Shown in pieces: positions 3,128 through 63,838 of a stretch of DNA of 64,000 nucleotides. Under the pieces are notes generated by a model. It made no database searches and had not been told where the DNA came from. It was given only the letters and a program-made list of their open reading frames with translations. The translations under genes and the position numbers were made by a program. Source of the stretch: Bimuria novae-zelandiae CBS 107.79 (taxonomy: Eukaryota; Ascomycota; Dothideomycetes; Pleosporales; Didymosphaeriaceae); contig ML976658.1 of the NCBI GenBank assembly GCA_010015655.1, forward strand, positions 139,787-203,786, in the 5' to 3' direction. Each line of letters starts with the position of its first letter. Position 1 is the first letter of the stretch.

Positions 3128-4957
3128 ATGGTGGCCACAAACGCTCTCGACGAACATACGACGGGCCTGGACGCGGACCAGAAACCTCCAATCGAGAAGA
3201 CGCAGTCGAACGTCGCGATTCCCATCTACAATGACGTGGAGCGCGTGTCGTCGACGGATCTTTCCTTTGGCGCCATTCTCAGAGGCAAAGCTGCGAATCC
3301 GCTCACCCCGTTTGAGAAGAAGGCTGCGCTTGCCAATGTTGAGTTGGACAAGTTTGGCATGGGGAGATACCAGATATGCATCTGGTTCTTATGCGGTTTT
3401 GGATACTTTCTTGATCTTGCATGGAGTCAAGGTGTCGGATTGATCGCATCTGCAGTGTATCAAGAGATGAATGTGCCGGATTCGAGAACGAGAGATATCT
3501 GGGCTTTAGCTAATGCGGGGCTTGCTGTTGGAGCACTGACCTTTGGCTTGCTCGTCGATGTTATAGGGAGAAAGTGGGCTTTCAACTTGACCTGCATGAT
3601 TACATCTGTCTTCGGACTGCTTCTTGTAAGTCTCGGAAACCGTTGTTGCGTTTAGACAGTCTGCTAAGTTTCCCCAGGCTGCACCGAAGTACAATTACGA
3701 AGCGATCTGCGGAATCTACTTTCTTGCGTCCCTCGGTCTCGGCGGTAACATTCCCATTGACGCTACAATTGCCTTGGAATTCCTCCCGCAAAGCCGCAGA
3801 AACCTTGTGACTCTTCTGTCTCTGTGGCAGCCTATCGGTGTGGTAGCTGCTTCGGGAATCGCGTACGGAACCGCCGCCAAATACCGATGTGACGTCGATC
3901 TTCCTTCCTGCACCGTCTCGAGCAATATGGGTTGGCGCTACGAAGTCATCGTCCTGGGCTGCGTGACTTTACTCATCTTCTTCCTCCGCTTCTTCGTCTT
4001 CACGTTCCACGAATCGCCAAAGTTTCTGCTCAGCAGAGGAAGGGAGGCCGAAGTGATCGAAGTGTTGCACGAGATTGCGAAGTTCAATCGAGCACCACCG
4101 CCAGCTTTGACTATGGAGATGTTCGCGTTGATCGACGAGGTCGACTCAAACAGCCCCATGGCACCTACTGATGCACCTCAGTCACGCGCAGACTGCTAAA
4201 AATGTGGGGAGAGGCTTCCTCCGAGAGATCAAGCGCTTGAAAGGGGTTTTCGGCAATAGACTTCAGTTGTTCACCTTCATTCTGCTTGCCATAGCTTACA
4301 TGGTATTACACCAACTCTATTCATCATGAATTGTATGCTGACCAGGCAATATAGGGCGATTACTGGTCATTCAACCTTGTCGGGTCCTTCCTTCCGATCA
4401 TTTTACTACGAAATAACGTATCTGACGGCCGTGACTCCGTGTCGGACACGTATGAGCAATACATTATCATCTACGCACCTGGTATCATCGGTGCGGTAAT
4501 GGGTCTCGTATCGGTTCAGATGCCGCTTGTGGGCCGCAAGTGGTCACTTGTGTTCTCCGCCATCTGCCAGGGTCTAGCGATGGCTATGTAAACGCAAGTC
4601 AAGAATACTGCTGGCTACGTGGGTCTCAATGCTCTGGAATACGTCATGCAGACTGTAAGTACCTTGAACTTCTCTGCACGGCAGGGCTAGAGAAAACTTG
4701 CTGACTCTGCACAGTACTTCAACGCCGTCCTATACGCATCCGCTCCCGAATTGTTCGACACAAGCTACCGCGGATCTGTTAGTGGCATGCTGTCCTGCCT
4801 CGGTCGTATATCGGGGATTGTCGCGCCGTTCGCGGGTGCGAGCTACCTTGCTGCAGAGAGCTCGGGCATTCTTTGGCTAGGTGCGGGTGGTATTTGGCTT
4901 GCTGCGTTTGTAATGGTGTTCCTACCTGTGGAGATGAGAAACAGGCAGATGTTCTAG
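3128..4957 (+). pseudogene. MFS transporter (SV2/sugar-porter-like), probably inactive
   Basis: A 12-helix major facilitator protein for a small organic solute; the substrate cannot be told. Four exons with GT-AG introns at 3626-3677, 4303-4354 and 4655-4714. The N-terminal half carries the signature GLLVDVIGRKW between helices 2 and 3 (MFS motif A region), and GLGGNIPIDATIALEFLPQSRR, typical of SV2-like fungal transporters, follows intron 1. The C-terminal half ends in FLPVEMRNRQMF. Two lesions are visible. The frame shifts between about 4158 and 4200: upstream coding is in frame 3 and the continuation NVGRGFLREIKRL is in frame 1, with no room for an intron. An in-frame TAA lies at 4589-4591 in exon 3, after QGLAMAM. 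Introns otherwise keep phase, so decay is recent or these are sequence errors. RIP is not evident around it. Confidence 0.8.
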
Positions 4958-12511: not shown

Positions 12512-12944
12512 GGTGATTGATTGATTGAGTGAGAAGTGTTGATTTGGTTTGGTGAAAGATGCAGGTGATTGGAGAACTGGTTGTTGTGTGACTATTCTCC
12601 ATAGAGCGGAAAAGATGCCTCTTTATATACACCTCTTCCCCTTCAGGCTTTCCATCTTCTTGTCCACTCTGCACGATGATGCTATTCGGACCTCCATGCC
12701 TGAAAATGTTCGTCACTGCCATCAACAGGCGTACTTGGCCAAGTAACATCAGGTAATTAGCCAAGTACCCTCCGGTAGACAGTGCTACGTTGTGTTGTGC
12801 AATGTGAAGCATCGGGCGTTGTCTTATTCAGCCGCTAGGACGCACCTAGGACACAGCGGATGTCGATCTCCTAGGCGGCCCCCATACCCCGACATACGCA
12901 GGATCTACGTTCGGGGATAATAAATGCCTAAAATACACGTGTTA
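12512..12944. other. Promoter region and boundary of the AT-rich block
   Basis: Upstream region of the small secreted protein gene. Base composition is normal until about 12920, where element B begins. No gene recognised. Confidence 0.4.
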
Positions 12945-13063
12945 TTATGATTCTGGAAATACCTGCTCGACCCACAATATTAGTCAGTCATCTAATCTAG
13001 CTTTAGGCAGGGTAATTAAGTAATTTTACCTTAATAACGTTATTTTTTAATATTACTTTTATA

Positions 13064-14015
13064 AATAATATACCTTATACTCTTAGAGAACCTACTAAAT
13101 ATAAATTATAGCTTTTAGTACTATAAGTAGTACTTAAAAAGTTAACTACTAATTACTTAAATTACTTAGTTTAAAAAATAATAGGCGTTCCCTACTCTAC
13201 TACTAAAAGGAATAAATTATTAATAAAGTGTTTTAGTTAATTATATAGACTATTTAGTATTTAGCGTAGGTGCCTACTTATACTTAATTAGTTTTATAGA
13301 GATAAGCTACTTAAATACCTTAAGAGTAAACCAACTATATATTTAAATAAGATACAGGCCTTTTTATATAATAACTTTAATATAAGAATCTTTATTTTAT
13401 CCCTCTAAAAGACCTTAGCTAAACTTAATTAGAGTAGAAAAGTAGCTTTAAAAGCTATAGCTAAGCGTAATAAGCTATTTTATTAGGCCTTTTATGCGTC
13501 CTGCTAGCAAATATATATAACTAATTAAGTTATCTACCTTAACAAGAGGCCGCTAATAAGCGAACTAGCGATAGGAAGTACAGCTGGTCGCCCGTTAATA
13601 GCCCTATTGACGCCGTCTACTCAGCGCGACGCTTAGAGAAGTGGAGCGTTCTGCCGGCCATAGACGCGTCTGGTTACCTTACCCACGTCGTATACCAGGG
13701 AGCAATTACTGCAGAGCCGATGGAGCATTTTGTGGCTACTCAGGTGCTCCCACTTTGCAACTCCTAGCTAGGCAAATAATTAGTAATACTCCTTAGTAAC
13801 GCGTCTATCTATAAGTTAGTAAGGCTTTAGTAACTATATAAAGACGGAGGCGTAATATTAGAATACTTATTATTATACTTACTTAATTTTATCCTAATTA
13901 AGTAGATCTTTAAAGCTCTAAAAAGCTAAATAAAACAAAACTTTAAGCGGGCTAATATATATGCTAATTTTACCTACTTCTTAAAAGAAGCTATATAAGC
14001 TATTTACTATAATTG
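13064..14015 (+). pseudogene. Tc1/mariner-type transposase of element B, RIP-inactivated
   Basis: A DDE transposase relic. The clearest patch, 13545-13770, reads NKRTSDRKYSWSPVN then EKWSVLPAIDASGYLTHVVY, QGAITAEPMEHF and VLPLCNS, the middle of a Tc1-type catalytic domain. Downstream comes NASIYK (usual DNASIH region, its Asp lost), then GVILEYLLLYLLNFILIK where the family has a LPPYSPDLNPIE-type motif, and FKALKSWIK. In-frame stops are TAA or TAG. It aligns along its length with the transposase of element A (NKRTSNRKYAWSPIN, RWSLLPTIDI, NASIYK, VKALKN). The start is placed by comparison with element A and is approximate. Confidence 0.75.
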
Positions 14016-14878
14016 TAATGAGGTAAGCGCCCCGCTTACTAAGCCAATACTATGTGACTTCCTCACCTGCACCAAAAGGTACGCACGAGAATACTTAAGC
14101 CAAGTATTACTCGTATAGTATAATATATATAGGATATGCTAGGGTCAGCCACTAGCGCTAGTGTTTGATCCTAGCCTAGCCGGAACCTCTATAAGCGAGA
14201 GAAGGCCACGTGTTCGACCGTGCCTACCTCGTTACAATAATATGCCTACTATAAGTAAGTGGCGGCGTAACTACGCGTGAAGAAAGTCTATTAAAGAAAT
14301 ATTAAAATAGCCTTTATAGTAGTAGAGATTTTGTACCTATAATGCTAAGAAATAAATACTATATTAATTAAGTAAAATAGAAATAAACTTCCTAAACTAA
14401 TGACTGTTATTAAATTTTAAATAGCTTTTATAATTATAAAGTTATAGATAAAGAGGTGTTAGCGGCATTAATATAATAAGCTATTTTAATAATGGTAGGT
14501 AATACTAGCGGAGATAATTTTATAGTAACCTACTATAAAATGGGCACGTACTTAGTTAAATTAATAAAGAAATTATTTTAGTTTTATTTAAATGCACTAG
14601 ATAGCCCGGGCCTATAACGCGTTTTCTATGCCTAAGTTACTAGCTTCCCTATTATAATACCCTACTTAGTTAACTACTTTACGTTTCTTATTACTTAATT
14701 TCTACTTATTATTACTCTTTAAGCCTTTACAGCGCCCCTAATTTCGCTTACTAAAAGTCTAGCGTATTTAAATTACTATTATTTTACTATGCTGGGTAGC
14801 CGTAAGAGTAGCCTAATAAGTAAAGTAAACTTCTCTCTTTAAACGCTAAATAGCATACCTCCGTATAATACTATACTA

Positions 14879-16397
14879 TGCCAAAAGTATTGTCGCGCTA
14901 GGCGCACGAGCCACCACAACAATGCGAAGCTGTAGATACACGTGTTCTTTAACACGATATTACTCTATTAAAATAAGGTCTTTTAGTATAGAAATTTTAG
15001 GCAATTAACGCGTAAGGAATAAATTAATAAAATAGTAGTATAATTATATTCTAGCCTAAGTAGAGGCTAGTGCGAAGATAACTAAAATTATAAAGTAGCT
15101 TAATATAATACAGCGTATAGTATAGCGTATAATTAAGAAATAAAAGACTATTTATAATAATATTTTAAAACCTTATATAGGCCGTCTACCTATTTTAACT
15201 GAGAAAGACTATTAAAAACTTATTTATATTACTAAAAAATACTTAAAAATTAAGTACTATATACTTATAAATAAAGCTAGGTTTTAACTATTTAATAAAG
15301 CTTTACCTAGCGTCTTAAGGCGTATAATAGCTTAAATTTTAGTAAAAAAAGATCTCTATAAGTTTAGGGTAAAGTAGAGATGTCGCGGGAATTATCCCTT
15401 GTAGGTATCCTGATCGGAAGGATCTGGTGGAACGGGCAAACATAACACCGAATGCTCAATATAAATACTGCTCTTACAGCAACTTTTTATATGTTACTGA
15501 TCAATCAATTCGATCTCCGAACTATATACTATCCAGCTCGTTTTACCCTCCACAAGAGACTAAAAATTAATACTATTATAATAAAAAAGGATTTTAAGTT
15601 TGCCTAAAATTAGTATAAATTTAATTAGTGAAGGACTACTTTAAAATTTAGTAATAAGTGTTCTATCGCCTAAGACTTTAACTATATAAATTAATAGGTA
15701 TAGCGCCTACCTTCGGAGAAATAGGCATATAGCAAGATAGAGGAGCTCTCTACAGCCAGGCAACCCGCGCGTATGGTTTGGGCCGCCGTATGGATGACAC
15801 CAGGGGCTCGAGTTGGGCGTAGTCCTCTGGTAATCATGACCCGCAATATATCATCACGACGCCATAGGTATTCGGCTTGGAGCTATACTAAAGCACTCGA
15901 GGAAGGTCTCTTGCCTCATTTTAGAGCTAGCTAGCGGTTTATGCAGGATAATGCACCTATCTACACTACTTATTACTTAAGGAACTAGCTTATAGATTAT
16001 AGCGTATAGATTATAGATTTCCTAGCGTACTCTCTAAATCTTAACCTTATAAAATACCTATAGTAAGTACTTAAAAAGAAGCTCTAGAAGCTCTATCTTA
16101 AGTTTAACTATATAAGGACGTCTAAAGTTAAGTAGGAGTAGTTTAAAGATAGTTTATATAAAATATAAGTAACTATACCTAATACTTTAATTAAAATATT
16201 TATTACTATAATGCTACATTGCCTCGCCGCCGTATAATAAGTAAGAGACTATTAGACTAAATATAAAATATAATATAATTAATTTTTAACTTTTAGTATC
16301 TAACTAAGGCGTAGTCTTATAGAGTTATAGTGTCTTAAAACTTACTTTAAAAGTGGTGTTAATGGTCTAAGCGCCTAGCGCAACAATACTTTTATCA
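14879..16397 (+). mobile_element. Nested Tc1-like transposon inside the accessory gene of element B
   Basis: Bounded by inverted copies of one sequence: ccaaaagtattgtcgcgcta at the left and, reversed, taaaagtattgttgcgctag at the right. It sits between NMLIDL and GMLFSV of the accessory gene, which are only a few codons apart in element A. It encodes a different Tc1-type transposase on the plus strand: RFMQDNAPIYTTYYLRN at about 15945, then DFLAYSLNLNPIKYL (the SPDLNPIE-type motif) and KKKLQKLYLKFNYI, ending in YYNATLPRRRIISKR. A GC-richer patch at 15720-15960 escaped RIP. A 174-bp solo LTR at 15381 lies inside it. The TA duplication is not clean, so the end positions are approximate. Confidence 0.7.
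15381..15554. repeat. Solo LTR, 174 bp, target duplication AGAGA
   Basis: Starts tgtcgcgggaattatccctt and ends accctccaca (TG...CA), with a perfect 5-bp direct repeat AGAGA at 15376-15380 and 15555-15559. A TATA-like caatataaatactgctc lies in the middle, as in an LTR promoter. No internal retrotransposon sequence adjoins it, so it is a solo LTR left by LTR-LTR recombination. Its base composition is normal although it is embedded in heavily mutated DNA. Confidence 0.88.
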
Positions 16398-17696
16398 TCC
16401 AATTATAAATCTATAAGCATATTAATATTAATCTTAAAGTCTTAAATAACTATTTCTAGCACTTCATTAATTTTTATAATTTAATTAGTAAAAGCTTTAA
16501 ATTTTTAATATATAAAGAACTTTTAGGTGTAGGTTAATAGCTATAATAGATTTTAATAAGTTAAAGACTCCTAGCTAAGCCTTAAGGGCTTAGCTAGTCT
16601 AATTACTTTAAGTAAAGGACGTAGTAAAGCTTAACTTTAGGCTAATTACTATATAGTATTAGCTATAATAAGTCTAATATATTTATTAAAGGTATCTTTA
16701 CTACCGCTGTCGCTGGCCGCCCGTTTTTTGCGCCTCTGTGCCTTCTTGTTAGCCGCCCGCGCCCTCGCGTTGACCAGGCATAAACGTATATTGTCTGAAG
16801 GAGCCTCGACGCTACTCTCTCCGAGGGTTATCTCGCGCGCCCAGATCGCCACGATATTGCTATTGGCTAGGTAGTGGTCCTCGAAGCGATCAGCTCTCCC
16901 TGGCGTCCGCGATACCCAGCAGCAGAAGGAGTAGTTGCGACACTTTAAGTCCTGGCACCTCTATTTATTACGGATCTATATTGCAACGCTGTTACCTACA
17001 GCAACTTTAGTAATAAGCACCTTAAGTAAATTTAAAAATTACTAATTTATTATTATTAGTTAGATCCTTAGCTAGCCTTTTAATACCCTTTATTACGTAT
17101 TTAGGCATTTTATAGCGTTTTTATACGCTATAACTTTAAGTTAAAGTTAATGTAAATAACTTTATTTAACGTCTTTTTAAGCTACTAGGCCTACTCTCTT
17201 ACGTAATTAAATTTAAGGACCTTTCTATACTAGAGTAACTTAATAAGTTATAGCTTCTTTAACTACTTACTTATATATATAGTAGTAGTAAAGTGTTCCA
17301 AGGTGCTTTTACGTACCTAAGCCTAATCTAGGTTAGGGGAGGATAGGTCAAGAGTAATATACCTTATAAATACGTTTAGTAGTTAAGAGCTTAAAATAAT
17401 AACGTTAGGGTTTATAAATAATATAATTTTATAATAAACTATAGAATAACTAACTAGGAGATTTACTAATTTATTATAAAAAATATACTTATAGTATCTT
17501 AAGTTAATTATAAGGAGTAGGAAAGGTATAAAGAAATTATTAAATTATATACTATTTATCTTAGTCTTTACTATTAATAAAATTATTATTGTAGTCCTGC
17601 TAAGACCTTCCTTTTAAAGGTAGTCCCTAAAACTTACTATAGTCCTGACTTTTATACAGGACTTCTCGCTTATGCAGGACTTTATTACGTAATTAC

Positions 17697-17943
17697 TGTG
17701 ACGATCGTGGGACTTGCTGTGATCTGGGCATCGTCACAAGGGCGATGGATGGCAGGTGCCACGCTGTGATGGCAGCTGCTACACTGAGAAGGCAGTCGCA
17801 GCATTGAGATAGCAGTTACTAGATAGCGGCAGACTGTATGCCGCCTACTCGGCCCTCTCGATCCCTTTCTCTTCTTTAGCTTTGAGTCTTTGTCCATAGC
17901 GCCAATCTATCAGCCGCAAGGCTATATCTTGCTGGCCGTTACA
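17697..17943. repeat. Solo LTR, 247 bp, target duplication ATTAC
   Basis: Starts tgtgacgatcgtgggacttg and ends cttgctggccgttaca (TG...CA). The 5-bp duplication ATTAC is perfect, at 17692-17696 and 17944-17948. Inside, a motif like gatggcaggtgccacgctgt is repeated about three times in altered form at 17749-17822. Not RIP-mutated, in contrast to element B around it, whose accessory gene it interrupts. An apparent 70-codon ORF on its minus strand has no support. Confidence 0.9.
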
Positions 17944-18757
17944 ATTACTAACCTAAGCTACCCCGCGCTTCCTTGTGTTCCTCCGCTCTAGTTATTTTGC
18001 TAATACTAGCCTTCTTAGCGTAATTGTCTGGTCTCTTTGTTCTTGTGGGGTTTGTGATTGTAACATAAGGCTCTTAATAGAAGCTCTTTATAGTAGCTAC
18101 TTATTTACAAGATTTCTTACAACGTTATTTACTTACCTTTAAAGTCTTATTAACGTTTAATTATCTATAATAGCTTTATTATTGAAGTCTTAGTAGTAGG
18201 TAAGAGAGTCCTTATCTAAAAAGGCGTGCTAATAAGTAATAACTAATAGCTTCTTTTTCTTATACTTAGGCTCCTTAGTAGGCTCCCTAGCAGCCTTAGG
18301 GGTATTAGAACTTAAGTAAAGGCTTAATAATCTACTTAGCATACTTAGTAGCTAGCTTAAAAGCTAGGTTTTTTTATTTTCTACGTATAACTCCGCGTTT
18401 ACAATAATATTATTTTTTAACACCTTATTAGCCTATGCGTTAATAGCTAATTAGCTTTTTTATTATAACTTTTATAAGGACTTTTTAGCCTCACTAGTAG
18501 TAATAGGGCCCTTATTACGCCTACTCTACTTATTACCTAAAAGGTTAATTTTAGTGTTAAATACCTACGTTACTTTACGTCTCCTATAAGTCTTTAGTAT
18601 ATTAATTCACCCTTAGTAATTAAATTAAGGTTAAATGTAAGTATATATTCTTAATAAATATTGCCTATCACCTATTTTAGGTGGCGGAGAATGAAGGCGG
18701 GGAAGCGCTTACTAAAACAGTGGGTCGAGCAGGTATTTGCAGAATCACCGATAGCTC

Positions 18758-44715: not shown

Positions 44716-46341
44716 ATGCCAGCCACACAGGACACCCAGCAACTCCAGAAAGAAGGCAGACTAGCTTTATCAATGCAGGCGATTCAGACTAAGCAGGTTA
44801 GAAGTCGCCGTCAGGCTGCGCGACTGTACAATATCCCCGAATCAACTATCCGCGACCGNNNNNNNNNNNNNNNNNNNNNNNNNNNNNNNNNNNNNNNNNN
44901 NNNNNNNNNNNNNNNNNNNNNNNNNNNNNNNNNNNNNNNNNNNNNNNNNNNNNNNNNNNNNNNNNNNNNNNNNNNNNNNNNNNNNNNNNNNNNNNNNNNN
45001 NNNNNNNNNNNNNNNNNNNNNNNNNNNNNNNNNNNNNNNNNNNNNNNNNNNNNNNNNNNNNNNNNNNNNNNNNNNNNNNNNNNNNNNNNNNNNNNNNNNN
45101 NNNNNNNNNNNNNNNNNNNNNNNNNNNNNNNNNNNNNNNNNNNNNNNNNNNNNNNNNNNNNNNNNNNNNNNNNNNNNNNNNNNNNNNNNNNNNNNNNNNN
45201 NNNNNNNNNNNNNNNNNNNNNNNNNNNNNNNNNNNNNNNNNNNNNNNNNNNNNNNNNNNNNNNNNNNNNNNNNNNNNNNNNNNNNNNNNNNNNNNNNNNN
45301 NNNNNNNNNNNNNNNNNNNNNNNNNNNNNNNNNNNNNNNNNNNNNNNNNNNNNNNNNNNNNNNNNNNNNNNNNNNNNNNNNNNNNNNNNNNNNNNNNNNN
45401 NNNNNNNNNNNNNNNNNNNNNNNNNNNNNNNNNNNNNNNNNNNNNNNNNNNNNNNNNNNNNNNNNNNNNNNNNNNNNNNNNNNNNNNNNNNNNNNNNNNN
45501 NNNNNNNNNNNNNNNNNNNNNNNNNNNNNNNNNNNNNNNNNNNNNNNNNNNNNNNNNNNNNNNNNNNNNNNNNNNNNNNNNNNNNNNNNNNNNNNNNNNN
45601 NNNNNNNNNNNNNNNNNNNNNNNNNNNNNNNNNNNNNNNNNNNNNNNNNNNNNNNNNNNNNNNNNNNNCCTGCAGCCTCTAGATGTCGGCTGTTTCTCAC
45701 CTCTCAAGACAGCGTACGGACATGAGGTGACTGAGCTAGCCAGACAGCATGTCTATCATGTAGACAAGGAAGAGTTCCTGTCAATCTACCCACGTGTACG
45801 TAAGGATGTTTTTACAGAGCAGAACATTAAGGCTGGCTTTCAAGCGACAGGGCTGGTGCCTTCCTGTCCAGATCGGGTCCTCTCATGCCTGACTATAGTC
45901 AGGACACCGTCACCACCACAGACGGGCGCTGAGCCAGCATGGACAGCTGAGACGCCTCACACTACTACTCAGGTTGAGCAGCAGGCTATGCTTATACGTA
46001 ATCGTCTGCAACGACCGCCCCAGAGCCCTACACACCAGATGCTTGGGCAGCTTGTCAAAGGCTGTCAGCTTGCGATGAACTCAGCGACTCTCTTAGCAGA
46101 GGAAGTTAAGAAGCTACGGGCAGCCAACCATCGCCGTAGACAAAGGCAGAGTAGGCAGCGACAGTATATTGCTAGAGGAGGCGCTCTACAGGCTGAGCAA
46201 GGCCGTGCTCTGGCTGCTACAGCCCATCAAGCTCTCGTTGAGGCTGGTCAAACTGCGTCTACGCCAGGTCGCCAGCGAGCACCACCAACGTGTAGCAAGT
46301 GCCATGAGCAAGGACACAAGATGACCCAGTGTAGAAAGTAG
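44716..46341 (+). CDS. Pogo/Fot1-type DDE transposase of E1n (middle undetermined)
   Basis: The ATG opens MPATQDTQQLQKEGRLALSM and a psq-type helix-turn-helix (SRRQAARLYNIPESTIRD) that binds the terminal repeats. After 270 undetermined codons the frame resumes at LQPLDVGCFSPLKTAYGHEV, whose Asp is the third catalytic residue of DD35D pogo transposases. Then FLSIYPRVRKDVFTEQNIKA, GFQATGLVP (typical of the family), a Gln/Arg-rich coiled region, and a terminal zinc knuckle CSKCHEQGHKMTQC (C-x2-C-x4-H-x4-C). The frame stays open across the gap in both directions, so 541 codons total is plausible and the enzyme may be functional. The N gap hides the first two Asp. Confidence 0.85.
   Translation: MPATQDTQQLQKEGRLALSMQAIQTKQVRSRRQAARLYNIPESTIRDXXXXXXXXXXXXXXXXXXXXXXXXXXXXXXXXXXXXXXXXXXXXXXXXXXXXXXXXXXXXXXXXXXXXXXXXXXXXXXXXXXXXXXXXXXXXXXXXXXXXXXXXXXXXXXXXXXXXXXXXXXXXXXXXXXXXXXXXXXXXXXXXXXXXXXXXXXXXXXXXXXXXXXXXXXXXXXXXXXXXXXXXXXXXXXXXXXXXXXXXXXXXXXXXXXXXXXXXXXXXXXXXXXXXXXXXXXXXXXXXXXXXXXXXXXXXXXXXXXXXXXXXXXXXXXXLQPLDVGCFSPLKTAYGHEVTELARQHVYHVDKEEFLSIYPRVRKDVFTEQNIKAGFQATGLVPSCPDRVLSCLTIVRTPSPPQTGAEPAWTAETPHTTTQVEQQAMLIRNRLQRPPQSPTHQMLGQLVKGCQLAMNSATLLAEEVKKLRAANHRRRQRQSRQRQYIARGGALQAEQGRALAATAHQALVEAGQTASTPGRQRAPPTCSKCHEQGHKMTQCRK
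44859..45668. other. Assembly gap, 810 N
   Basis: Undetermined bases inside the E1n transposase frame. The length is a multiple of three, and the frame is open on both sides. Confidence 0.99.
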
Positions 46342-60317: not shown

Positions 60318-60406
60318 TGTCTGCAAGAGACATGATGAGGATTTAGTGTCGATGCGACGATCGGTGTTTGGTAAGGTTGACGCTGCTAATTCAGATTAAC
60401 GGGTAT
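60318..60406. other. Promoter region between the oxidoreductase and element A
   Basis: The 5' flank of the minus-strand oxidoreductase is cut short by element A, which begins about 90 bases upstream of its start codon. Confidence 0.45.
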
Positions 60407-60594
60407 AACGCTTTGCAAAAGACCGTCCCGACCCACTTGGGGCGAGTTTCTGAGTGGCTGCACGCTTTTTAGGTAATCGCTTCCCCGCTTTTATCGCCCT
60501 ACACCTAAAATTATATGAGAGACGATGTAATACAGGAAAATTAACTTTCTACGAGGTGTATAAAGGCAGTTAGTTGCCGTGTAGTGAATGTATC

Positions 60595-62313
60595 ATGCCG
60601 AGTACCCGCAAAAGGAAGGCAAAACAGGTGTTTAACGCTGGCCGCAACCCTCCGAGGAAGCGCAGGGCGCCAAAAAAAGCCCTATTGACGAGGGCACCCC
60701 TGGCCGTCGTACGATTTGCTGGCATAGAGGAGGAAGGACCTACAGAGGAGGAACAACCTCTGCCAGAGGGCGTTAACGACAACGACTTTTATATATACGT
60801 TGACGATTACCCTAAGGACGAAGAACCTTAGTTAGCTTAGAGGCCTACGTCGCTAGAGAAAGAGCATTCGCGTAATAGGGGGGTATTTAACAACAATAAG
60901 TAGGCTTTAATTTTTGGCAAAGTTAACGCGCTAACACCGCTGCCAGAGATTAATAATAATAGCTAAACGTGTAATAAGGGGGTATTTAACAAATTACTAG
61001 AATTATATAAAGTTAAGCTATACGTTACCTATCGCTGGCGCGCGTTCCTACGCAAGGAGAAAGTTAGGACTAATTTTAATACTAAAATAAGAATACGTAC
61101 GTACTTCTACGCAGAGCTCTGGCAGTAGGTAGATAATATTATATAAGACTTCTTAGAGTTAACTCCCCCTATTAAAACTATAGTAAAAAACTTAACCGCG
61201 GTTGTATATATACTATAGATACCTAAGTAACAGAGACTTGCGTAGTCTCTTAAACGTGGTAATAGTGTTACCTTTATGCAGGTTGTTAAGCGCGCGTATA
61301 AGTTAAAGGAGGAGTCTATTACTAAGATAACTTACGTTAACTTTAATTTAACGCTATTAGAGCTAGAAACTAGCTAAAATAATTAGACGCGTAATAGGGG
61401 GGTATTTAGCTTATAGAGCTCTTAGAGCTCTCTGCCGCGACTTACTATAACTTAGCGCTAGTTATATAACCTGCTAGAAGTCCTCGCACATACTACCATT
61501 GGCGAGGGCCCTATAGTCGCTATACGTAATTAATGGCAATGCCAGGATACCTACTATAGTAACTATCCGTACGTATGCTAGGTTAAACGTACGCCTAGGC
61601 AACCTAATTATTTTAAGAACCATTACTTAGTAAGTAGCACTATAGTGGCGGCATAGGCGCGCGATATAACAAAGGGCAGGTGTATAGTTGACGAGCCACA
61701 TGACAATATACGCCTAAGTCTCTCGCTGGCCAGAGAGAGGTCTGTAAAGGAGAAGGCGTCGCAGAAATCAGCCAAAAAAGATACTAGATCCAAGCTTAAT
61801 ATAGACAACTTTATAAAGGTTATCGCCGCTAGCTCTCTCTTTATAAGCTAGTTAGCACAGAGTTAAATTATTAGCTAGTAGTAATAGGTTAAGACGCCGT
61901 CTGCGACTTTAGGGAGCTTTTTAACGTTAGTATAGTAAGACTTAATTTATAAAAACACGATAGAGCTTGCCTATTAAACTTAGCACTTCTTTAACTAGTA
62001 AAAAGACTAAGCACTAGCTAGAGAGCTGCCTAAAGTTAATTAGGTGTTTAATAACGTTATTTAACGGGGGCAAATTAACCTTAATATGCTAATAGATCTG
62101 TCTAACACAGGGATGCCGTACGCCGTGTAAGAGTAGCATTTTATGTTACTAATGCCGTTGCTCCTCCGCCTCTGCAGGATGGCGATTCGGTGGCGATCTG
62201 GGTATAATAAACTCACAGAGAGCGATGAGGAGGGTGCCGCAGACGTATATAGAGAGGATTAAGAGCGTAAATAGCGTGAGAGGTTGCGTAGGGAGAGAGA
62301 CAATTTAGTGTAA
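60595..62313 (+). pseudogene. Accessory gene of element A, about 572 codons, function unknown
   Basis: One frame can be followed from the ATG (MPSTRKRKAKQVFNAGRNPP, a very basic start) to 62313. It is interrupted by about 40 stops, all TAA or TAG and none TGA, as RIP makes from CAA, CAG and TGG. After the acidic stretch EEEGPTEEEQPLPEGVNDND, a short motif R/C-N-R/K-G-V-F-N/S recurs three times in frame (near 60869, 60968 and 61388). Then IGEGPIVAIRN, WQCQDTYYSNYPYVC, VKRTPRQPNYFKNHYL, IVAA-stop-ARDITKGRC, DNIRLSLSLARERSVKEKAS, a Lys-rich linker, QINLNMLIDLSNTGMPYAV and MLLMPLLLRLCRMAIRWRSG. The same blocks occur in element B. Cys pairs with a following His resemble a metal site. No known family recognised. 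Confidence 0.78.
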
Positions 62314-62649
62314 AGAGCTAGCAACGTTGGCGGAGAGGTTCTGTACACTACGCACAGGCCATTTTCTAATTAAAATTTAACTAAGTCCACGCGTACGCGC
62401 GCCTGTCTAGTAATAAAGTTACTTATAAAGGCGCCAAGACCTACTAAAAATACTATACTTTGTCCACGCTAATAATATCTTTCCCTTTATAACTCTTCAC
62501 CCACAACAGATATCGCAAAACGGATAATATTAATTAATTTAGTAATATTAGTTACACCTTCTCTAGCTATTAAAGCTAAAGTTTTAAATAATAGCAGGCG
62601 ACTTTTAGCGACCTCCGCGATATCGTTATAGACACTAATTCTTTAGTGT

Positions 62650-63662
62650 TATACCTTATCTAGCACCTACGGCACCTACTTATAGAACTTAAAGAATCCT
62701 CGCGCGGATTCCACCTAATTATAGCATACGTTCTATACTGCCTTCTCTAAAAAGTAGGTAAAATCCTTATACGTATAAGCGCGTTCGTAGTGCTTTTTTA
62801 TCTAGTTTTTTAACGCCTTAACGGTCTGCTTAATCGGGTTAAAATCTGGCGAGTATAGTAGTAAATATTTAAGTACAACGCCCGCCTCCGCGCATAATAA
62901 GACAATCTTTTCTAACTTATAGATAGAGGCATTATTAAGGACTATTACTAATTATTTACCTAGCTAAGGATTGTAATAAGGGAGTACTTTATTTGCTAGA
63001 AACTCCTTTATTAAATCTGCGGTAATTGCTCCTTAGTATAGGACATAATTAACGTAACTATCTATATCTATAGTAGGGAGCAAGCTCTACCTCTCCGTGC
63101 GTCGCGCTAAGTATTATACGTCTGCCAGCGTGTTTATAGGTGACCAGGCATACTTTCTATTGCTAGTTCTCTTATTACAGGCGCTCTCGTCGAGGCAAAC
63201 AACCTACTCTAGTTTATATATTTATTGGCAGCGTGCACGAAACACCCGACGGAGGCCTTTATAGCGCTCCCTGGCAGCTTTTAACGCAGCTTTTCGACTC
63301 CACCTTATGCCAGCAAGAAATCTCGTAATAGTGGCTGCCAACACCTGTAAGTCGAAGTCGTCGCACAAGAAGGCCTGCATCTCATCGAGATATGCCGTAG
63401 GTTTGCCCCGTAGGAACTCCAATAGGGCGTCTTTATGACATTAACGCAGCGATAGTGACTAACTAATTTTAATATATCGCGGAGGGTATGGCTAACTAAA
63501 CGCTTCTAGATTAAGTTGGTATTTCTACATAGTTTTAGTGTTAACTCTAAAAGATCTATAAATCTCGTGGTTTTTTTGCCCTGCCTTTATGCGCTTAATA
63601 ATCGCCTACACTATTAACGCCTATAGTCTATAGCCTGTAGGCTTCCCAGGATTAATTGGCAT
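62650..63662 (-). pseudogene. Tc1/mariner-type transposase of element A, RIP-inactivated
   Basis: Start at 63662 (MPINPGKPTGYRL), ending near 62650. The intact patch 63422-63222 reads FLRGKPTAYLDEMQAFLCDD and ATITRFLAGIRWSRKAALKA, the paired helix-turn-helix and linker of Tc1-type enzymes. Further on: VCLDESACNKRTSNRKYAWS (first Asp), RWSLLPTIDIDSYVNYVLY, GAITADLIKEFLANKVLPYY, LNNASIYK (second Asp changed to Asn), VVLKYLLLYSPDFNPIKQTV and KALKN-stop-IKKHYERA. The SPDFNPI motif carries the third acidic site region. Stops are TAA/TAG. Clearly orthologous to the transposase of element B. Confidence 0.85.
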
Positions 63663-63838
63663 ACTATACAGAACTCTAGTAATAAGAAAAGTTAGTGTAA
63701 TTTCCTTAATTACATCGTCTCTCATATAATTTTGTATGAGCGATAATGAAAGTGGGGAAGCGATTACCTAACAAGCGCCCAGAGTGGGTCGGGACGGTCT
63801 TTTGCAAAGCACCGATAATTGCCGTAGATCCCAGCGTA

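Follow-up and report, generated by a model that had tools for sequence, protein, structure and literature searches.

Transposases of the Tc1 type are regarded as self-sufficient, and several have hence been used as laboratory tools. The usual members of the Tc1/mariner (IS630-Tc1-mariner) superfamily code for a transposase only, though this is not absolute. Here we describe a family of elements, represented by two mutated copies, elements A and B, in a 64,000-nucleotide stretch of the genome of the fungus Bimuria novae-zelandiae CBS 107.79 (contig ML976658.1, positions 139,787 to 203,786; henceforth the window). It shares with the superfamily a DDE_3/IS630-type transposase of the DD34E type, inverted ends and a TA target duplication, but differs from the usual members in that a second conserved gene converges on the transposase gene within an element of 3.3-3.5 kb.

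Elements coding for more than a transposase have been described in several settings. Reviews of the Tc1/IS630 group admit extra frames, naming the Tec and TBE elements of ciliates, in which a DD34E Tc1-type transposase is accompanied by additional genes (PMC7325037); these resemble the present family in transposase type and in having further genes, but they possess three genes and ends of ~700 bp, as against two genes and ends that are alike over 41-160 bp here. The Trem elements of Paracoccidioides (TremE, TremF) are, like ours, fungal Tc1/mariner elements with two open frames; they measure 1.9-2.3 kb and have a DDD-type transposase, the TremF frames being CENPB and DDE parts and the second frame of TremE, of 217 residues, being called only similar to a hypothetical protein (PMC2836289). 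Going by these descriptions, size and DDD type set them apart from our elements. Pogo elements contain either a single frame or two, and these code for transposases (PMC7386202). PIF/Harbinger elements also display a second, DNA-binding protein beside the transposase (PMC3562529), but their transposase belongs to another family, and the second protein described here has no Myb-like match in Pfam; neither of our two genes gave a Pfam match of the Harbinger or Myb type. A parallel in layout is offered by MuDR of maize, whose two convergent genes, mudrA and mudrB, encode a transposase and a product of unknown function, with promoters inside the ends (PMC3440606). However, MuDR has a transposase of the Mutator-like element (MULE) type, and Mutator duplicates 9-11 bp of its target (PMC3562529), whereas our elements combine an IS630/Tc1 transposase with a TA duplication; it is on account of these two features that we place the family in the Tc1/IS630 group despite its MuDR-like layout. 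In the mostly non-subscription literature consulted, we found no fungal element of the Tc1 type in which a gene other than a transposase converges on the transposase gene, which is no proof of its absence.

A two-gene Tc1/IS630-type family

Searches of the genome (77,445,255 bases in 191 contigs) showed that A and B, both mutated, belong to a family that comprises at least five subfamilies and numbers more than 80 full-length copies in this one 77-Mb genome. With A as DNA query, 40 scored candidates yielded 130 matches, of which 19 cover the entire 3409-base query; a subfamily about 78% like A, here termed A′, has both ends in all 11 fetched copies. The DNA search with B recovered relatives without the inserts of B, belonging to subfamilies B (L043) and B′ (L044-L050), and end-anchor matching located both ends in five of the seven B′ copies. 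Two further subfamilies, C and E, were found in a protein search with a stretch of 438 residues that is open in the B′ second gene; this search gave 96 scored hits out of 254 candidates; in the corresponding DNA searches, 30 of 44 rows cover the whole C query and 18 of 42 longer rows the whole E query, with 61 short end matches set aside in the latter. These searches identified L061, L064 and L065 as C copies and L066 as an E copy, and L058 represents a further lineage, in which the transposase is open over 330 residues and the second gene is masked in part. With as many as two mismatches allowed, a 22-base end pattern matched 104 times in the forward and 108 times in the reverse orientation, its reversed control not once; among the matches listed, 32 pairs were formed, with 11 spanning 3391 bases, nine spanning 3485 and five about 270.

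The two genes, one encoding the transposase (~334 codons) and the other, convergent with it, measuring roughly 540-570 codons, are present in all five subfamilies. Their pairing was counted in the scored hits, namely 96 of 254 second-gene candidates and 120 of 421 transposase candidates. A transposase lies within 4 kb of 58 of the 96 second-gene hits; 57 of these 58 pairs are convergent, and the intergenic gap is 535-613 bp in 54. With DNA-level intervals added, a transposase accompanies 82 of the 96 second-gene hits and a second gene 93 of the 120 transposase hits, again among the matches listed. Counted over the longer DNA-level intervals, both genes occur in 37 in each case, out of 42 for A and A′, 44 for C and 42 for E, the A and E figures using 42 of 130 and 42 of 103 search rows after exclusion of short end pieces and, in the A search, of small fragments.

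The transposase matches the Pfam families DDE_3 (1e-29), HTH_33, HTH_32 and DDE_1, and passes the cut-off of the NCBI IS630 model NF033545 (6.7e-44). L046 and L048 each retain an uninterrupted transposase frame of 334 residues, and D161, D246 and E281 are invariant in five open transposases, the 34 residues between the last two defining the DD34E signature. The terminal ends are inverted and alike over a stretch that is shortest in B′ (41 bp) and longest in A (160 bp); their tips are unlike: TCGGTG at one, and TAACG, TAATG or TTATG at the other. TA flanks were found on both sides of 19/19 A copies, on each side of 10/11 A′ copies and in 5/5 B′ copies.

Some end-related sequences were also observed apart from the two-gene copies. 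Five A-type end pairs about 270 bp apart (G000:C13:802002-802271, C15:873008-873274, C24:796511-796777, C61:402263-402529 and C66:149417-149683) resemble miniature inverted-repeat transposable elements by spacing, and another at G000:C73:284872-287222 is 2351 bp apart, less than in any two-gene copy. A further short match to the right end of A, at L011:315-489, adjoins a full A copy and is possibly a nested or solo end.

The second gene was under selection before its decay

Copies of A differ from one another nearly only by transitions (238 against a single transversion between L001 and L002), and indices of repeat-induced point mutation (RIP) are low in B′ and high in A, A′, B, C and E; the stops in the second gene are thus explained by RIP. 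The RIP pattern would also be in keeping with a filamentous ascomycete. Since every copy in the window is stop-ridden, one might suppose that the second-gene frame is no gene but has arisen by chance, or as an antisense reading, opposite the transposase region. This is refuted by several observations: the frame occupies its own half of the element rather than lying opposite the transposase; an open piece of 438 codons persists in the lightly mutated B′ copy L047; and A matches L047 in only one of six frames, with an expect value (E) of 1e-80. The first-pass annotation of the window had reported that the second genes of A and B match collinearly, and this is upheld by alignment. When the frame of A, with stops masked as X, was compared with all six frames of B, one minus frame was recovered with a full-sequence E of 2.2e-36 and 114.2 bits, and a second minus frame with 5.8e-7, whereas none of 100 shuffled versions of the A frame scored above 3.2 bits.

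As RIP makes only transitions, we counted transversions by codon position as a RIP-proof test of selection. In nucleotide alignments of the second gene, transversions at the first, second and third positions number 30/21/47 between A and the A′ copy L038, and 4/5/12 between B′ and B; the intergenic region of A and A′ gave 9/6/10. In a protein-guided alignment of six representatives, which is biased towards matching at positions 1 and 2 and so favours this very outcome, the third position is highest in all 15 subfamily pairs, with p<0.05 in 14 and 0.051 in one. Transversions being most frequent at third codon positions, the second gene was under protein-level constraint before RIP.

Trees of the transposase and of the second protein, built from 18 loci each, recover the same subfamily order, (A, A′), C, (E, (B, B′)), with local support of at least 0.97 on the deep branches of both. 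They disagree within B/B′, where the second-gene tree pulls L043, a copy laden with RIP changes, into B′. Between representatives, identity is 0.47-0.70 for the transposase and 0.30-0.71 for the second protein. These results bear on the notion that the second gene is a passenger, i.e., a gene that the common ancestor took up a single time from the host and that is of no use to the element, which would suit the fact that no family library recognises its product as a transposon protein. Such a gene is expected to decay or disappear; instead, constraint is evident from the transversions of every subfamily pair, and five subfamilies retain the gene in the same place and direction despite identities of only 31-71%, with agreeing gene trees, making a mere passenger highly improbable. 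Together, the five subfamilies, the convergent pairing, the transversion constraint and the trees hence bear out the earlier proposal of a Tc1-type family with two genes, the second of which selection has preserved.

As for the degree of decay, the RIP indices of L047 and L048 mark the B′ subfamily (L044-L050) as much less RIP-mutated than the others, which suggests either a recent burst or escape.

A putative accessory protein of transposition

The second protein is about 542 residues long in B′. Aligned across copies, it displays an Arg/Lys-rich N-terminus, a central C-x4-C-x6-C-x14-H block followed by a basic stretch, and a conserved C-terminal part. The central block may resemble motifs of unnamed fungal proteins. 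No accepted match to it was obtained in Pfam, NCBIfam (searched with three second-gene pieces), PHROGs or PDB sequences, and searches of IMG/VR and of prokaryote genomes, made with two short peptide patterns only, gave 33 and 31 pattern matches, respectively, and no relative. Candidates discarded in these searches include DUF7033 (E 0.16) and REC114-like (0.037 and 0.092) in Pfam, which miss their own cut-offs, and WhiB-like in PHROGs (best 0.048), rejected as a relative. The PDB search returned three matches up to E 10, of which 7jwb_D (E 4.5e-5) concerns 20 residues of an antibody chain, has no single stretch passing and was judged to be noise.

Based on the gene layout and these protein features, we consider it probable that this is a DD34E cut-and-paste family of the IS630/Tc1 type whose complete form comprises the transposase and a facing gene with a nuclear, metal-binding product that aids movement. 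The most likely role of the second protein, as read from its sequence, would thus be that of a nuclear, metal-binding accessory to transposition in a MuDR-like arrangement. Under this proposal, each gene would be transcribed towards the middle of the element from a promoter within the end on its side, as is the case for MuDR of maize, and the transposase would cut and paste the element at TA. The second protein would enter the nucleus, for which its basic N-terminus is a potential cue; its C-x4-C-x6-C-x14-H part may fold around a metal ion; and it would assist movement, the likeliest way being to bind either the DNA of the ends or the transposase. RIP has since mutated nearly all the copies read, the B′ group least.

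Several observations weigh against this proposal and the evidence behind it. No fully open second gene occurs among the copies read, the best having three and four stops in 542 codons. The motif is imperfectly conserved in ten aligned rows: the first Cys is present in 9/10 and the second in 6/10, the third Cys and the His being present in 10/10; the exceptions at the Cys positions are Tyr, one RIP-type change away. Two fold predictions from unbroken pieces of the second protein reached a mean predicted local distance difference test score (pLDDT) of 38.6 and 40.3; as both failed, the suggested metal binding derives from the motif. The deeper transversion counts come from the protein-guided alignment with its bias, and in the A-A′ transposase the counts are 21/7/19, the second position being depleted with no excess of the third over the first. 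The TA check covers the ends of A, A′ and B′ among the five subfamilies. Finally, 14 of the 96 second-gene hits and 27 of the 120 transposase hits are without a listed partner. Element B itself is among the unpaired hits, its parts being split by inserts, and on contig C8 one pair of ends, 12.3 kb apart, encloses both a second gene (at 211093) and a transposase (at 221576), as if a single element had been split by an insert. Four of the 27 unpaired transposase hits were examined: L058 does carry the gene, the L057 stretch is masked, and L059 and L067 are truncated, the former matching A′ copies only to about position 1772 and the latter matching an E copy over only ~280 bp. No intact relative lacking the second gene, which would speak against the two-gene family, was seen among these four. 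The idea that gaps in the lists equal missing partners was rejected, as L061, L064 and L065, which have no listed transposase, all possess one.

One could alternatively envisage that the second protein acts on the host rather than in transposition, either as a suppressor of silencing or RIP or as a regulator of element expression. In a genome that heavily mutates repeats such a factor would make sense, the gene being conserved like one that the element needs, and a basic N-terminus with a Cys/His motif would suit a chromatin or DNA factor. However, nearly all copies read are RIP-mutated, only those of B′ lightly, so that any protection was not lasting, and the library searches yielded no link to a known silencing protein. 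We therefore regard a host-directed role as rather unlikely, and favor an accessory role in transposition.

Elements A and B in the window

Element A, a RIP-mutated two-gene transposon, occupies 60406-63815, with a TA, read from the sequence, on either side: the left one (60404-60405) is an identical flank in all 19 two-ended A copies, and the right one lies at 63816-63817. Its left end (60406-60539), ~130 bp, is 74% like the inverted right end (query rows 4-133 against 3295-3404); the right end (63701-63815) closes with CACCGA before the TA. The second gene, of ~572 codons, lies on the plus strand at 60595-62313, its frame counting 573 codons with 38 stops if the final stop is included; its C-x4-C-x6-C-x14-H motif is at 61540-61623 (plus strand), with the second Cys being a Tyr in this copy. 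The transposase gene lies on the minus strand at 62691-63665 (coordinates converted from the genome match G000:C3:202477-203451), has 16 stops, and is 51% like the B′ transposase over residues 3-326.

Element B, of the B subfamily, spans 12945-18751 with a TA, likewise read from the sequence, at 12943-12944 and at 18752-18753. It retains a transposase piece on the plus strand at 13501-13983, 69% like the A transposase DNA, and is interrupted by inserts that were located by comparison with insert-free relatives and left in place for all alignments of B. The first-pass annotation was right that B bears inserts, but its two become three, all with approximate limits: 14014-14240 (nothing in G000:C1:72188-73908 corresponds to query 1084-1312); 14871-16408, which is composite and repeated elsewhere in the genome; and 17292-18065, whose flanking pieces are adjacent in G000:C1:73906-75488, which is also repeated elsewhere and which replaces the 17697-17943 given previously. 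On the minus strand, the second gene is scattered between these inserts in four pieces: 18031-18594 (residues 3-190 of the L047 protein), the low end of which overlaps the approximate edge of the third insert, 17065-17313 (residues 171-253), 16409-17089 (residues 246-474, holding the Cys/His motif) and 14719-14862 (residues 478-525).

Other features of the window

A 541-residue frame at 44716-46341 has a weak match to a Pipsqueak-type helix-turn-helix (2e-4) and a CCHC-like C-terminus, and is pogo-like by these features. The guanine-plus-cytosine (GC) value of 0.175 at 45-46 kb arises because the middle of this frame reads N. Long AT-rich stretches (GC 0.22-0.40) at 29-38 kb and 47-54 kb lie between gene-rich parts (GC ~0.5-0.58), in an AT-isochore pattern.

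Implications

A broader reading, which we advance tentatively and with some doubt, is that these elements constitute a two-component Tc1-type lineage, in which a DD34E transposase depends on a dedicated, undescribed metal-binding helper and the pair moves and diversifies as a unit; the plan of MuDR would then have been invented separately within the Tc1 superfamily. The practice of counting only transversions offers a RIP-proof way to show selection on the genes of dead elements, and a profile of the second gene would let annotators recognise a family otherwise filed under hypothetical proteins. If our reading is true, a large and long-lived lineage has kept a second protein under selection, and for some Tc1-type elements a partner would then be either necessary or of advantage.
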